Under the pieces are notes generated by a model. It ran no database searches and had not been told where the DNA came from. It saw nothing but the letters and a program-made list of their open reading frames with translations. Positions 5,802-53,159 of a stretch of 64,000 bases of DNA are shown here, piece by piece; the stretch's first letter is position 1, and the number at the start of each line of letters is the position of its first letter. Source of the stretch: Fimbriimonadaceae bacterium (lineage in GTDB: Bacteria; Armatimonadota; Fimbriimonadia; Fimbriimonadales; Fimbriimonadaceae); assembly GCA_019694835.1 (NCBI GenBank), contig JAIBBE010000057.1:1-64000 (forward strand), in the 5' to 3' direction. Made by a program: the position numbers and the translations under genes.

Positions 5802-5875
5802 CCCCTCTCCTGCGCCCGGAAGACTTGGCGAGCGGCAAAACTCGGCGGCGGAGGAGAGGGGTTGAGGGAGAGGTT
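5802..5875. repeat. Palindromic element, family C core (intergenic copy)
   Basis: The sequence runs CCCCTCTCCTGCGCCC at 5802, then about 35 nt, then GGAGAGGGGTTGAGGGAG from 5853. The same core, with a different middle, occurs three times inside xdhC (47989-48366) and in opposite orientation inside the molybdopterin subunit gene (50787-51010). This copy lies between the nadA stop and a convergent hypothetical gene. Confidence 0.8.
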
Positions 5876-5908
5876 ATGGTGCGATTTTGCAAACAGGTGG
5901 CGTCCGGA

Positions 5909-5934
5909 GCCTCCATCCGTGGGAGGATGGAGGC
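5909..5934. terminator. Short hairpin between convergent genes (family E)
   Basis: A perfect 10-bp stem (GCCTCCATCC / GGATGGAGGC) encloses the loop GTGGGA, between the convergent ends of nadA and the gene at 5943. A second hairpin at 53113-53142 has the same loop and inner stem but a different outer stem, also between convergent genes. There is no U-run, so termination is inferred from placement. Confidence 0.5.
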
Positions 5935-5942
5935 ATAGGCCA

Positions 5943-6951: not shown

Positions 6952-7054
6952 GGGTGGCCGGCGTGATGAAATTGTGCACCCCGGTTCGACCAACACTGAG
7001 AGGCCTCCGACCTTGACAGCGCCGGGGTGCACAATTTCATCACCCCGGCCACCC
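6952..7054. repeat. Long palindromic element, family B (copy 1)
   Basis: Two 33-bp inverted arms (6952-6984 and 7022-7054) match at 32 of 33 positions. They contain GATGAAATTGTGCACCCC and its complement. The loop of about 37 nt shares the string CCAA..ACTGA.AGGC.TCCG with the loop of the second copy at 25276-25380, so the two derive from one element. It sits immediately downstream of the fahA stop. Confidence 0.85.
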
Positions 7055-15112: not shown

Positions 15113-15133
15113 CATGTGAACTCGACGCAGAGG

Positions 15134-15296
15134 GTCCCCTCCCCCGATACGGGTTAGGGTTAGGGAGGGGGCGCGTGCTCTTGGTCGGGGAAGACTGCGG
15201 CATCGGCGACCGATCGCAAAACCCGATTTGGAATGCATACGACAATCGAAAGCACGCGCCCCCTCCCTGTCCCTCCCCCGTATCGGGGGAGGGGAC
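15134..15296. repeat. Nested palindromic element, family D (copy 1)
   Basis: Outer arms of 20 bp match perfectly (15134-15153 and 15277-15296, starting GTCCCCTCCCCCGATACGGG). Inner arms of 17 bp also match perfectly (15163-15179 and 15251-15267, GGGAGGGGGCGCGTGCT). The element fills the gap between two convergent genes. A relative is at 38200-38359. Confidence 0.85.
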
Positions 15297-15328
15297 GCGT
15301 TTGCAGTTCGCGCAGCGCAACAGCATCT

Positions 15329-25275: not shown

Positions 25276-25380
25276 GGGTGGCCGGGGTGATGAATTGTGC
25301 ACCCCCGGTTCTGCCAAGTACTGACAGGCTTCCGGCAAGTGGCAAACGCCGGGGTGCACAATTCATCACCCCCGGACACC
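25276..25380. repeat. Long palindromic element, family B (copy 2)
   Basis: Left arm 25276-25308 and right arm 25349-25380 are near-perfect complements containing TGATGAATTGTGCACCCC. Arms and loop are related to the copy at 6952-7054. It occupies the first third of the 338-bp gap after the envelope operon. Confidence 0.85.
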
Positions 25381-38199: not shown

Positions 38200-38359
38200 G
38201 TCCCCTCTCCCACTCTCGTGGGGGAGGGACAGGGAGGGGGCCGGACACGGAAACTCTCGGCCCAAGGATGATTTATGAGAGTCTTGACTCGGCCCGCAAA
38301 TCATCACCGGCCGTCAGCCCGCGCCCCCTCCCTAACCCTCCCCCGAATCGGGGGAGGGA
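38200..38359. repeat. Nested palindromic element, family D (copy 2)
   Basis: Left block CCCCTCTCCC...GGGGGAGGGACAGGGAGGGGGC (38202-38241) pairs with right block GCGCCCCCTCCC...GGGGGAGGGA (38320-38359). Each block also folds on itself, for example CCCTCCCCCGA / TCGGGGGAGGG. The family D copy at 15134-15296 has the same nested layout. The element lies between the amidase gene and tRNA-Ile2. Confidence 0.75.
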
Positions 38360-44014: not shown

Positions 44015-44935
44015 ATGACCATCGCCGTCGCCCTTTGCCTGACCCGTACGCTATCGTGGACAGCCCCGTACCGCTGGCATCCTGCCGGCACCGCTTACGG
44101 AGAAATTGCATCGGGAGGCCGGCAGGATGCCAGCGGTACATCCTCGCATTCTCCCAATCGTCATTCCGCACCACGAACCTTCAAAGTGGGCGCGATTGAC
44201 GGTGAACCATCAACCGCCCAAGACCTTCGGTCCGTGCGCGAGGCCTTCGCTGGGGTCAAGGCGACCTTTCTCCTCAAGGAGGTCGGAGGTAGAGTGCTGG
44301 TCGACCTCGATCCCAAACGATCGAATACCCCCTTCTCGCCGTGCTCGACCTTCAAAATCATGAACTCGCTGGTCGGCCTCGATACGGGCGTGCTCAAAGG
44401 CACTCAAGACAAGTTCAAGTGGGACGGCGTCAAACGTGAGCGCGCCGAAGCCAACCGCGACCAAACCCTCGAAAGCGCCTTCAAGGACTCCATTGTGTGG
44501 GTGTATCAGGACGTTGCACGCCGAATTGGGCCGGTACGCATGCAAAAAGCTCTTGACGCCGCCAAGTACGGCAACTGCGACATCTCCGGCGGCATCGACA
44601 AGTTCTGGCTCACATCCTCGCTCGAGATCTCCCCGAAGAATCAGCTCGCGGTCGTTGAATCCCTCCACACCGACACGCTCCCCTTTTCAAAGCGCGCACA
44701 AGCCACCGTCCGCGAACTGATGCTGCAGGAGTCAAAGGTCGGCTGGGAGTTCTCCGGCAAGACCGGGACCGGCATCCTCCCGGACAAATCGCGGCTTGGC
44801 TGGTTCGTGGGCAGCGTCAAGTCGAAGGGCAAACGCTACGTCTTCGTCGCGTGCATCGAGGGGCCGAAAGGGACAACGGGATACACGGCCCGCACGATGA
44901 CGCTCAAGGCCCTTTCCTCACTTGGGAGCGATTGA
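44015..44935 (+). CDS. Class D (OXA-type) beta-lactamase with in-frame repeat in the N-terminus
   Basis: The class D signatures are all present: nucleophile Ser111 and Lys114 in PCSTFK, S159-I-V, YGN at 185-187, WLTSSLEIS at 198-206 and the KTG box SGKTGTG at 248-253. These enzymes hydrolyse beta-lactams in the periplasm through a carbamylated lysine. The N-terminus is abnormal. MTIAVALCLT is a short hydrophobic run, interrupted from residue 18 by a family A palindromic element (44068-44139) read as APYRWHPAGTAYGEIASGG, before the mature domain begins near residue 66. There is no other start codon before the catalytic domain. Export is therefore uncertain. Confidence 0.9.
   Translation: MTIAVALCLTRTLSWTAPYRWHPAGTAYGEIASGGRQDASGTSSHSPNRHSAPRTFKVGAIDGEPSTAQDLRSVREAFAGVKATFLLKEVGGRVLVDLDPKRSNTPFSPCSTFKIMNSLVGLDTGVLKGTQDKFKWDGVKRERAEANRDQTLESAFKDSIVWVYQDVARRIGPVRMQKALDAAKYGNCDISGGIDKFWLTSSLEISPKNQLAVVESLHTDTLPFSKRAQATVRELMLQESKVGWEFSGKTGTGILPDKSRLGWFVGSVKSKGKRYVFVACIEGPKGTTGYTARTMTLKALSSLGSD
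44068..44139. repeat. Palindromic element, family A (copy 2), inside the beta-lactamase gene
   Basis: The 22-bp arms at 44068-44089 and 44118-44139 are identical to those of copy 1 at 21-91. The 28-nt loop differs from copy 1 by a few bases. It is read in frame as part of the class D beta-lactamase N-terminus. Confidence 0.85.
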
Positions 44936-46956: not shown

Positions 46957-47517
46957 TCAGTCGCCCGGATGATCGAAGTCCCGAAGCCAGTCGGAATCTG
47001 CCTCGAGAGTCACGACCTGAGACCCGAATCGGCGAACGATTTCTCTTGCTCCCTGATCGCCTTGGAGTTGGAGGAGGTCGGAGCGAAGTTCGGAGGAAAA
47101 CCACACGGGCGGCCCCGATTGGCCGCTCGTCCCGGATGAAGCGACGATGAGCGGTCGAGACTGGGCGGCCAAACTAGAGAGTCGTTGAAAATGGGACGTC
47201 GGCACGAAGGGCATGTCGCCAAGCGCGATGAGATAGCCGTCTGCCAGACCTGCGACCTCCACGCCGTGCACGAGCGACGCCGCCATCCCCTCCGCATAGC
47301 TCGCATTGATCGTGAACCGCACGGGAAGATCGGCGATCTCTGCTTGAACACGTTCCGCTTCATGGCCCAGCACCACGATGACTTCATCGAGTCTTGCTCC
47401 AACCAGGTTGAGGGCAGACCGGCGAATCACTGTCTCTTCGTTTACCTGAGCCAGCAATTTGTTGGTGCCGAACCGGCGGGAAAGCCCCGCTGCAAGCAGA
47501 ATCCCCGTGGTCCGCAT
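46957..47517 (-). CDS. mocA: MocA/MobA-like molybdenum-cofactor nucleotidyltransferase
   Basis: This 186-residue NTP-transferase-type protein starts with GILLAAGLSRRFGTNKLLAQ and has GYLIALGDMPFV for the metal-binding Asp. It matches MocA enzymes that attach CMP to the molybdopterin of molybdenum hydroxylases. It is the last gene of the operon, with its start overlapping the xdhC stop by one base (TGATG), so it probably supplies the cofactor form for the hydroxylase encoded upstream. Confidence 0.9.
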   Translation of the reverse strand: MRTTGILLAAGLSRRFGTNKLLAQVNEETVIRRSALNLVGARLDEVIVVLGHEAERVQAEIADLPVRFTINASYAEGMAASLVHGVEVAGLADGYLIALGDMPFVPTSHFQRLSSLAAQSRPLIVASSGTSGQSGPPVWFSSELRSDLLQLQGDQGAREIVRRFGSQVVTLEADSDWLRDFDHPGD

Positions 47518-48749
47518 CAGAGCACCTGAACGATCTCGGCGAGAATGCCTGCCGCGATTTCTTCAGGCCCGCGCGAACCGATGTCGAGACCCACGGGCTG
47601 CCTCAACCGTGCAATCTGTTGCGCATCCAGGCCCGCTTGAGCGAAGCGCACTTCTCGTTCGGCACGGCTCTTTCTCCCGCCCAGCGCTCCGACGAATCTG
47701 GCTTCGGTCCCAAGGAAGTGAATGAGCGCCGGGTCGTCGATTTTTGGGTCATGGGTCAGCGCGAGGCAGCAAGTGCGAGCGTCAATGATCATTTTGGGCA
47801 GCACAACTTGTGGCCAGTCGGGAATCAGCGATGTGGGCGCGACCGCGAACCGATCCAGCACCGCAAACGAGCAGCGTGGGTCGATGACGACCGTTTCGTA
47901 TCCCATCGCGGTTGCCAGGCCAACCAAGGTGGCGGTGATATGGACGGCACCAACGATGACGAGACGGAGCGGGGGATTGAGCCACAGTGGTTCGGAACTC
48001 CCCTCTCCTGCGCCCGAGGGACTTGGCTCACGGAGGTCTTCGTGGCGGAGGAGAGGGGTTGAGGGGGAGGTCAAGCGGGTGGCATCCGAACGGGGAGGCC
48101 GGCAGGTTGCCAGCGGTTCGGAACTCCCCTCTCCTGCGCCCGGAGGATTTGGCTCACGGATGCCTTGGTGGCGGAGGAGAGGGGTTGGGGGAGAGGTCAA
48201 GCGGGTTGCATCCGAACGGGGAGGCCCGCAGGTTGCCAGCGGTTCGGAACTCCCCTCTCCTGCGCCCGGAGGATTTGGCTCACGGATGCCTTGGTGGCGG
48301 AGGAGAGGGGTTGGGGGAGAGGTCAAGCGGGTGGCATCCGAACGGGGAGGCCCGCAGGTTGCCAGCGGTACAGGTGTGCGCTGCGAGTGGGCAGCTCGAA
48401 CTTGGGCAAGGAGCGCCGGCGGGAGCTCTTGCCACGGCCACGGGGTGGCCCATACTCGGATCGCCCCTCCGCAGGTGAGGCCCGCCGACCAAGGGTTGTT
48501 CAACTCACTTGGGCCGAACTCCAGAAACGTCGCCTGGCCCGTTCGAAGTGCCTCCAAACAAGCCCGAACAACCTCTCCCTCAACGCAACCGCCGCTGATC
48601 GAGCCGATCATCAGTCCGTCATCACGAACCGCCATGACAGCACCGACGGAGCGCGGGCTCGAACCGGCGACATCGACCAAGATCGCGAGCGCCACTTGCC
48701 TCCCGGTCTCCGACCACGATGCCGCCGCCTCCAGCCAATCCAAACTCAT
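47517..48749 (-). CDS. xdhC: XdhC/CoxI-family cofactor insertion protein with three in-frame 42-residue repeats
   Basis: XdhC proteins bind and sulfurate the molybdenum cofactor and load it into xanthine-dehydrogenase-type enzymes. The N-terminal CoxI domain (AILVDVAGSSPRSVGAVMAV and SGGCVEGEVVRACLEAL) and C-terminal Rossmann domain (LRLVIVGAVHITATLVGLAT and ARFVGALGGRKSRAEREVRF) are intact. Between them, three tandem copies of a 42-residue unit (LATCGPPRSDATRLTSPPTP and on) are coded by 126-bp repeats at 47989-48366. Without the insert the protein would be about 284 residues, a common XdhC size. The insert falls in the interdomain linker, so function may survive. Confidence 0.92.
   Translation of the reverse strand: MSLDWLEAAASWSETGRQVALAILVDVAGSSPRSVGAVMAVRDDGLMIGSISGGCVEGEVVRACLEALRTGQATFLEFGPSELNNPWSAGLTCGGAIRVWATPWPWQELPPALLAQVRAAHSQRTPVPLATCGPPRSDATRLTSPPTPLLRHQGIREPNPPGAGEGSSEPLATCGPPRSDATRLTSPPTPLLRHQGIREPNPPGAGEGSSEPLATCRPPRSDATRLTSPSTPLLRHEDLREPSPSGAGEGSSEPLWLNPPLRLVIVGAVHITATLVGLATAMGYETVVIDPRCSFAVLDRFAVAPTSLIPDWPQVVLPKMIIDARTCCLALTHDPKIDDPALIHFLGTEARFVGALGGRKSRAEREVRFAQAGLDAQQIARLRQPVGLDIGSRGPEEIAAGILAEIVQVL
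47989..48366. repeat. Tandem array of three 126-bp family C units inside xdhC
   Basis: Units start at 47989, 48115 and 48241. Each contains CCCCTCTCCTGCGCCC, a middle of about 40 nt, GGAGAGGGGTTG and a family A-like end (CAGGTTGCCAGCGGT). Units 2 and 3 differ by one base, which is silent. Unit 1 differs from them at about eight positions. The period is a multiple of three and no unit has a stop in the xdhC frame. Confidence 0.92.
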
Positions 48750-51076
48750 GCCAGATCGGAACGCCGGATTGGCAGGCGACGCAGTCGCTTGCCCGTCGCG
48801 GCGAAGATCGCATTGGTCAGCGCACCCGAGACCGCAGGGTAAGGAAGCTCGCCCATACCCCCGGGCGCGGCCTCACTGGGAACGATGTGGACGTCGAACG
48901 CAGGCGCCTCGTGAATTCGGAGCCAGCGGAAGTTCGAGAAGTTCGTCTGCACCACGCCTCCATTCTCAATCGTTATGGCCGCCCGGATTGCCGTCGAAAG
49001 CGCGTCGGTGGTCGCTCCTTGAACTTGGGCAACGACGCTCAGCGGATTGACGGCAATGCCGCAGTCGAGCGCGGCCGTGACCTTATGGACTTTCACCTCG
49101 CCCCCTTCGATCGAGATTTCGACGACTTGGGCAATGAACGAGCCATAGCCCGCGAAGCAACCGAATCCTTGGAATCGACCCGCTGCCAGTTTCTTGCCCC
49201 AACCTGCCTTTTCGGCCGCGAGTTTGATGACGTTCTTGAGTCGCTCGTTCGAAATGAGCCCGAGCCGATATTCGACCGGGTCCTTCCCCGCGAGATGAGC
49301 CAGTTCGTCGATCAGGCTTTCATTGATAAAGCCCGTTGCGGTGTTCGCCACCGATCGCCAAGCTCCGGTAGGTACCGGCGATGGGGCACTTCCTCGTGCC
49401 ATCCCCGAGTTCTCAATCGCATAGGGAATATCCGCGCTTCGGAATTCCGACCGTCCACCCCGGCCGCCCGCCTGAATGTACTGATGGCTCCAGAGAACCG
49501 GATTTCCGCTTGCATCGACCGCCGCCTTCACCGCGTGAAGGCTCGCGGGCCGATAGAAGTCGTGCTTCATGTCGTCGTCGCGGGTCCACATCAGGCGCAA
49601 CGAGACGCCAGCGGCTCTGGCAAGGGCACCGGCTTCTGAGGCAAAGTCCTGTTGAAGGCGTCGTCCGAAGCCTCCGCCAAGGAGTGTGATGTTGACTTCG
49701 ACCTTGTCCGCCGCAATACCCATTGCGCTGGCTACGGCCTCTTGACACTGAGCGGGTAATTGCGTGGGCGCCCAAACCCGGACGCGATCTCCGACGAGTT
49801 CGATGGTGCAGTTCTGGGGCTCCATCGTCGCGTGAGACAAGAAAGGCAGTTCGTAGATCCCTTCGACCACCTTGGCACCCGCGGGGACCGCGAGATGCTC
49901 CCCCACTTGAGCCTTCATGGCTTCCGTGATCTTGGCGCTGTCCAAGCCCGCATTGGGTCCATCGTCCCATTCGACGGCAAGGGCGTCACGCCCTTTCAAT
50001 GCCGCCCAAGTGTCGTCGGCGATGACGGCAACGCCGCCGCGAAACTCCAGAATCTGACGAACGCCTGGGACCTTTTTGGCGGCCTCCTCGTCCCATTTGA
50101 CGGCCCGGCCACCAAAGCTCGGCGGTCGTGCGATGACGGCGACTTTGACGCCTTTGACCGGCGCGTCCATGCCGAACATCGCCTTGCCCGTCACGATGGC
50201 CTGATTGTCCACCCGCCGCGTAGGCTTGCCGATGATCGTGAATTCGCTCGGCGTCTTCAGGTTCACACTTGCGCGATCAGGTACCGCTTGCTTGGCCGCG
50301 TCGACAGCGAGTTCGGCAAACGTTGCCTTCTTGCTGCCGGATTGGACGATGCCGTTCTTGACCGTACACGTCGAGGCGTCGACTCCCAGCTTCTTCGCGG
50401 CCGCAGCGACGAGCATCGCCCGTGCCGTTGCCCCCGCGATTCGTAGGGGTTGGAACATTCCCCGTATTGATCCGCTTCCTCCGACGCCTTGTGGACCATA
50501 CTTCGCCTCGTCCGCCGGAGCCTGGACGACCTTGACCTTGCTCCAGTCTGCGCCGAGTTCATCTGCAACGACCATCGCCAGGGACGTGCGCGGGCCTTGG
50601 CCCATGTCTGGTTTCGACACCGTGATGGTCACCACACCGTCGGTGCCAATTTGGATCCAGGTGTTGAGTGTGAGTCCGGCCTGATCGTCATCTGCTCCGC
50701 TGGACGCGTTGCCCGGCAGCGCACAACCGAGGATGAGACCCGCACCAGCGACCGCCACGACTTGGATGAACCCACGGCGCGAAATCCCGGATGTACCGCT
50801 GGCAACTTGCCGGCGAACCGGATACCCCTGACTTGGAGGCTGACGCCGCGACCTCTCCCCCAACCCCTCTCCTTCGCCGCGAAGCGGGGGGTAATTCGGG
50901 CCTTTCGGGCGCAGGAGAGGGGAGCCCGGCGTACCGCGGCCCTCCCCTTCAATCTGAAATCCGGTCTCAAGCTGGGGGTCTTGCCGGCAAGTTGCCAGCG
51001 GTACATCCGGAGTCCCGTCAATGCACATAGGCAGGCCGAATTCGTCCAGGACTAATTTGGGGTTCTCGTAGCTCAT
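48746..51076 (-). CDS. Molybdopterin-binding subunit of an aldehyde/isoquinoline-type hydroxylase (IorB-like)
   Basis: This 776-residue subunit belongs to the xanthine dehydrogenase family and resembles isoquinoline 1-oxidoreductase beta-type proteins. A twin-arginine motif [20 protein letters not shown] near residue 97 points to Tat export, but it is pushed inwards by a palindromic element (50787-51010) that codes residues of about 23-97. Blocks seen are [38 protein letters not shown] and [28 protein letters not shown] includes the catalytic Glu. Natural substrates are aldehydes or N-heterocycles; the actual one is unknown. It overlaps both neighbours by 4 bp. Confidence 0.93.
50787..51010. 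repeat. Composite palindromic element (family A-type ends, family C core) inside the molybdopterin-subunit gene
   Basis: Outer arms of 28 bp match perfectly (50787-50814 and 50983-51010). They contain CCGCTGGCAACTTGCCGGC, close to the family A arms. Inside, in opposite orientation to xdhC, lies the family C core (CCCCAACCCCTCTCC near 50858 and GGCGCAGGAGAGGGG... near 50908). The element is 224 bp and stays open in the coding frame. Confidence 0.9.
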
Positions 51077-51534
51077 TTCGCACCTCCGGCGGCGGCGTGG
51101 ATCGCTTCGCGGATGCGTTGGTAGGTGCCGCAGCGGCAGATGTTTTCCTTCATCGCCTCATCGATATCGGCGTCGGACGGCTTGGGTATCTTGGCGAGCA
51201 GCGCGGCGGCAGTCATGATCTGACCGGTCTGGCAGTAGCCGCATTGCGGGACGTCTTGATCCACCCAGGCTCGCTGGAGCGGGTGATCCCCGTTCTTACT
51301 GAGGCCTTCGATCGTGACGATCTTCTTCCCGGTCGCATCAGCGACGGCCATCTGGCAACTTCGGACCGCCTGCCCGTCGATCATCACGGTGCATGCACCG
51401 CAGACGCCGACGCCGCAACCATATTTGGCTCCCGTCAACCCGAGATGGTCGCGCAGGGCCCACAGCAGGGGCATATCTTCCGGGACATCGAGATTTCTTT
51501 GGGTTCCGTTGACGGTCAAATTGAATGCAGGCAT
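51073..51534 (-). CDS. 2Fe-2S subunit of the molybdenum hydroxylase (IorA-like)
   Basis: The ATG at 51534 ([10 protein letters not shown]) is chosen over 51564 because it fits the family start. The product of about 153 residues has two 2Fe-2S clusters: the plant-ferredoxin type ([18 protein letters not shown]) and the second type (CGYCQTGQ and CRCGTYQRI). These pass electrons from the molybdenum site. It is the first gene of the operon, and its stop overlaps the next start as ATGA. Its operon order (small, large, xdhC, mocA) is typical of IorAB-type enzymes. Confidence 0.94.
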
Positions 51535-51728
51535 AGGCGGACGACCTCCGTCAAGATCATACACCGGGATTGGCTTGGCGAGTGCCTCGACTCCTAAATC
51601 GGCGCGTCATCCGGAAGTCCGATAGAAACGGCTGTGTGCGGCCTCACAAGAACCTGACGAAAGGCACCAACTATCCCTATCTAACGACAGGCATTGAAAT
51701 GGGCGCAAGTGGGAAACACTTGGGGGCA

Positions 51729-53112: not shown

Positions 53113-53142
53113 AAGCATCCATCCGTGGGAGGATGGATGCTT
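53113..53142. terminator. Short hairpin between convergent genes (family E)
   Basis: A perfect 12-bp stem (AAGCATCCATCC / GGATGGATGCTT) with loop GTGGGA, flanked by AATCAAAAAGA on the left. It shares loop and inner stem with 5909-5934. It lies between convergent genes and probably terminates transcription both ways. Confidence 0.65.
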
Positions 53143-53159
53143 ATGCTAGCGATTAGGGG

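Follow-up and report, generated by a model that had tools for sequence, protein, structure and literature searches.

An xdhC-like gene (47517-48749, minus strand; 410 aa) in the stretch of DNA analysed here (the window, 64,000 nucleotides) harbors, in frame between its two conserved domains, an array of three head-to-tail 126-bp units (47991-48368, minus strand; residues 128-253). This array probably results from the in-frame insertion of a mobile REP/MITE-like palindrome into the tolerant linker of XdhC, followed by tandem duplication up to three copies. What is unusual is the combination of an exact codon-multiple period, three copies, and the retention of both domains. It would be a clear case of a dispersed hairpin giving rise to a long, regular, open tandem array in a conserved maturation factor, and would extend the in-frame palindrome phenomenon to the Fimbriimonadaceae, a family of the phylum Armatimonadota.

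The array was delineated by Tandem Repeats Finder and by comparison of the units with each other. The program reports a 126-bp unit repeated 3.1 times at 47985-48369 (95% matches, 0% indels, score 693) and, besides it, one further tandem-repeat row in the 64 kb. From the N-terminus of the product onwards, the array comprises unit 1 (48243-48368), unit 2 (48117-48242), and unit 3 (47991-48116), all on the minus strand. The original prediction had placed the array at 47989-48366; it is indeed found there, although the unit borders, set here in the gene frame, are offset by 2 bases, a tandem repeat having no fixed register. The other features first described, namely three tandem in-frame units, a period of exactly 42 codons without any stop, and two units set apart by one silent base, were all borne out. 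One base distinguishes unit 1 from unit 2 (GCC/GCA, Ala in both), and units 1 and 3 differ by nine bases, seven of them non-synonymous, with zero indels. The xdhC frame is uninterrupted across the whole array, each unit coding for 42 Pro-rich residues. Frame openness alone means little, since the chance of an open 42-codon frame at the base composition of the window is ~0.49 per frame. Three of the six frames are open through the array, and 58 of the 96 frames are open in 16 copies of the hairpin described below (element B); the open frame was thus rejected as evidence.

The xdhC product displays an XdhC_CoxI domain (residues 12-79) and an XdhC_C domain (residues 263-406), and the array sits in the linker between the two, both domains being kept, as anticipated in the original prediction. 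In the PDB, it matches best the XdhC structures 2we7/2we8 and 3on5. In an AlphaFold2 model based on a 49-sequence alignment, the 10-residue block means amount to 85-97 in the first domain, 60 at residues 81-90, and 94-98 in the second domain, with a pLDDT below 50 at residues 137-248. The array segment is predicted to form a flexible, unstructured insert. The gene belongs to an apparent operon, whose members lie on the same (minus) strand with overlapping ends: a MobA-like NTP transferase (46957-47517), xdhC, the 776-residue large subunit of an iorB-like molybdenum hydroxylase (48746-51076), and an iorA-like [2Fe-2S] subunit (51073-51564). The names iorA and iorB are taken from those of database matches.

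The XdhC search matched 3777 proteins, the best 120 of which were analysed. Among these 120, the closest XdhC (P0002, 297 aa, 90% identity), compared as a protein only, is devoid of the array. Its inter-domain linker is 58 residues long, against 171 residues in the window XdhC, while the 119 aligned relatives of this set, P0002 included, have linkers of 41-133 residues, with a median of 81 residues over all 120 proteins. On this set, the possibility that other XdhC proteins carry a homologous linker of such length was rejected. The array was first said to add 126 residues; it does span that number, but the net gain over P0002 is 113 residues, because the native linker also differs in P0002. 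The latter has ~13 linker residues that are missing from the window XdhC, suggesting either an insertion that was not clean or a subsequent loss.

A match to XdhC at E ≤1e-20 was found in 27 of the 85 genomes of the family of G001. In the genome with the best DnaG match (G073, 63% identity), the XdhC (53% identity) matches residues 4-295 of P0002 as one 834-base stretch, and this single uninterrupted match indicates that it lacks a large insert. Overall, the 11 XdhC relatives examined and G073 all lack the insert. The alignment proposed initially thus yielded no homologous linker of that length. Furthermore, the peptide 128-253, compared at E ≤0.01 with 3325 candidates having 0.55-1.75x the query length, matched itself only, and a repeat peptide common to other proteins was rejected within that range. 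With a 90%-identical relative devoid of the array, it becomes directly testable whether mobile palindromes give rise to new segments of proteins, as has been proposed.

Judged from its sequence, each 126-bp unit is composite: it combines element B, a hairpin of 59 nt, with a spacer and with one half of element A, a REPIN-like palindrome. The units had been described as palindromic, which holds for the hairpin and the half palindrome inside them but not for the 126-bp unit as a whole. Element B possesses 15-nt arms with one mismatch, a 29-nt loop, and a short G-rich tail at one side. It is located at 48252-48310 in unit 1, 48126-48184 in unit 2, and 48000-48058 in unit 3, and in xdhC short inverted repeats (GTTCGGA/TCCGAAC) lie on either side of it, no target-site duplication having been delimited. 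The half of element A within the unit reads GTACCGCTGGCA..., and a half element A (GTACCGCTGGCAACCTGC..., 48350-48371, minus strand) stands at the start of the array. Elsewhere in the window, element A forms inverted doublets.

The original prediction had also noted the core of the unit between genes and in the adjacent operon gene, and both were found: an element B hairpin lies between convergent genes at 5802-5861, and another one, with mismatches allowed, is nested in an insert of iorB at 50864-50922. Element A pairs with arms of 22-24 nt are present between genes at 19-93 and at 44066-44139, either upstream of ORF 44015-44935 or inside its 5' end. This latter pair falls inside the gene if the start at 44015 is real rather than that at 44156; as the listed start puts the pair in the N-terminus, the true start may be located downstream. 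The motifs of this ORF recall those of what is presumably a class D beta-lactamase-like protein. More generally, the window contains 19 hairpins with arms ≥14, against 3, 3, 3, 4, and 8 in five single-base shuffles. Twelve of them have arms ≥15, of which four are inside genes (three in xdhC, one in iorB) and eight are not wholly in a gene, as placed with a hand-edited gene list. Five more arm-14 hairpins are inside other genes, a number within what the shuffles yield. Ten Y1_Tnp queries detected no Y1 transposase in the 64-kb window (best E 0.13); Y1_Tnp matches occur in 52 of the 85 family genomes, including G073 and G040.

The insert of iorB (50787-51010, minus strand), likewise in frame, is a composite of its own, in which element A arms, complementary at 28 of 28 positions, enclose one element B. 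The window iorB retains the N-terminus common to its relatives P0122 and, in part, P0123, as well as the twin-arginine segment; the A-B-A composite separates the two. In P0123 (706 aa), the composite is absent and a short join is found at the insert site. The closest iorB relative (P0122, 738 aa, 79%) carries at the same N-terminal site a different extra stretch (residues ~23-57, RHPEG...SLGMT), which, from the peptide, looks as if it were coded by another palindrome. The back-translated pattern of this stretch was found in none of the 85 family genomes and a shorter form in none of 163 loci, while tblastn of the peptide against the window and further loci gave a best E of 1.6. As P0122 is known as a peptide and its pattern gave 0/85, a double palindrome hit of the iorB site is a lead rather than a result. 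A wider reading would make the composite palindromes of this lineage portable coding cassettes that enter genes in frame, expand in tandem by codon multiples, and quickly grow disordered linkers, the iorB site having perhaps been hit independently by different palindrome families in the window and in P0122; we regard this generalization as doubtful.

Within the family, the 126-bp unit was retrieved at E ≤0.001 in 3 of 85 genomes, with at least 10 matches in G073, at least six in G040, and at least one in G078. A strict element B pattern (loop of 25-35 nt) was found in 2 of 291 genomes of the phylum, at six places in G073 and one in G040, with 0 control matches. With any loop of 12-80 nt allowed, each of the 11 hits (five in the window, six in 394 kb of G073) was 59-60 nt long despite the different loops. 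In a wider set, 16 element B copies spanned 58-61 nt, with a pattern that by itself restricted the loop. As for element A, a single one of the 85 family genomes contains it, with 2 mismatches, and no viral contig does. Given this near absence from the family, the mobility of element A is assessed on the 64-kb window alone.

G073 also harbors a tandem pair of element B with a period of 110 bp (L137, 12894-13063). Judged from the ORFs, this pair sits between an 893-codon ORF and a 140-codon ORF and outside both, while another open frame of 442 codons crosses it. One of the ORFs beside it appears FtsK-like by eye, and the other is small. The pair shows that element B and its flank are also duplicated in tandem at an intergenic-looking place, there with a period that is not a codon multiple.

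The differences between units 1 and 3 are unevenly distributed. The 29-nt loop accounts for six of the nine (binomial P 0.006), and the arms, 30 nt in total, are identical in the two units. The values of pN and pS are 0.077 and 0.056, nine differences being few for a selection test. These differences fit a palindrome-like evolution with a peptide that would not be under purifying selection. Unchanged arms and varying loops would also suit hairpins that act as nucleic acid, for instance in mRNA stability, attenuation, or protein binding, and that are coding by accident, an explanation that we consider improbable. It finds further support in the eight other window hairpins with arms ≥15, not wholly inside genes, and in the folding of the plus strand, which is better than that of shuffles (z of -2.79 and -2.22 for two units). 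The mRNA strand, however, folds only slightly better than shuffles (z of -1.27), and the insert is missing from the 11 relatives mentioned above and from G073. Moreover, the Rfam search of the window returned two tRNAs and no other match, and a known structured RNA was rejected as the identity of the array.

It is less probable still that the array has been selected as a protein feature, for instance as a length-tuned flexible tether between the XdhC domains, the copy number adjusting the linker. Three exact codon-multiple copies with zero indels and the variable linker length among relatives speak for such a tether, but the peptide differences between units look neutral, seven of nine being non-synonymous, no related peptide was found among the 3325 candidates, and the element is present between genes too. 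The least probable explanation is that the copy number is an assembly artefact or that xdhC is decaying: units 1 and 2 are one base apart and the copy number comes from the assembled sequence of one assembly, but assemblers collapse such arrays more often than they expand them, the three units are distinguishable by the nine differences of unit 3, and the full frame and both domains are present.

The insertion and duplication of a mobile palindrome may have proceeded as follows. A composite made of half an element A and a hairpin B, possibly brought by transposition, would have entered the variable linker between the XdhC domains in frame. Two tandem duplications would have followed, through slippage or unequal exchange: the older one would have set unit 3 apart from the common precursor of the other two units, and the recent one would have given rise to units 1 and 2. 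The start of the unit (CCGCTGG) bears a short and imperfect similarity to the flank that follows the last unit (CCACTGTGG), which would make such slippage possible. Selection may act only against frameshifts and stops, and the array would then be translated as a flexible spacer, roughly neutral for XdhC.

As for precedents, what had been observed in the sequence is confirmed and its interpretation is partly supported; single-copy palindromic elements of Rickettsia (RPEs), initially named as the closest precedent, yield that place to grouped intragenic REPs (PMC3733652), tandem REPINs (PMC3116915), and PARCELs (PMC2996958), as far as these sources describe them. According to the account in PMC3733652, REPs of the GTAG/CGTC families may lie wholly inside ORFs, singly or in groups; clusters in Thauera and R. 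conorii code for 43-82 residues, and the recB genes of X. campestris and X. oryzae carry different REPs at about the same site. The xdhC array shares with them the presence of short palindromes in an ORF, whereas it is a regular three-copy array of 126 residues. As in REPs and REPINs, element A consists of short imperfect hairpins or inverted doublets, dispersed here within 64 kb. It starts, by eye, with GTAC instead of the terminal GTAG or CGTC, and the hairpin of element B is longer, its loop being variable. PMC3116915 describes REPINs arranged in ordered tandem clusters, flanks included; these clusters resemble the array by their near-identical palindromic units with a flank, and element A by its inverted doublet. 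The account there covers extragenic sequence, however, whereas the xdhC array is coding, with a codon-multiple period.

RPEs are summarised in PMC2996958 as in-frame insertions in non-structured protein segments. As these elements are described there and in PMC3733652, the xdhC array follows the same mode, since it lies in frame where the protein, otherwise intact, tolerates an insertion, and is absent from relatives. It stands outside the RPE family in the strict sense, since its host is not Rickettsia, the genomes matching best being those of Fimbriimonadaceae or their family, its sequence and length are different, the ends of element A lack, by eye, the CGTC tag, and it forms a regular tandem array, clusters being reported for R. 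conorii (PMC3733652). PARCELs, as presented in PMC2996958, likewise are coding repeats in tandem and show dyad symmetry in their DNA. Their motif is amphipathic, 25 residues long, and often found in membrane-targeted proteins, whereas the xdhC unit codes for 42 Pro-rich residues without predicted structure in an enzyme-maturation factor. The enterobacterial RU-1/2/3 elements (PMC2759123) resemble MITEs, measure 103-168 bp, contain open frames, and occur in annotated genes; they have other sequences and hosts, and the abstract describes no three-copy in-frame array. By joining two published features, intragenic clusters and tandem arrays, and by exceeding those clusters in length, the xdhC array is a variant of a known phenomenon. 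A literature search on MIRU gave no match, and a limited search on palindromic or tandem repeats of Fimbriimonas or armatimonads found no such report.

Other repeats were observed in the window, all of them between genes. A palindrome family with a GTGATGAA(A)TTGTGCAC core and arms of 26-33 nt occurs at 6952-7054 and 25282-25374. A further inverted-repeat family, CCCTCCCCCGA...GGGGGAGGG, is found at 15132-15298 and 38316-38358, the two being 91% alike over 43 nt. Finally, 5908-5940 and 53114-53146 are 33-nt direct copies (88%) containing a short hairpin (CATCC...GGATG).
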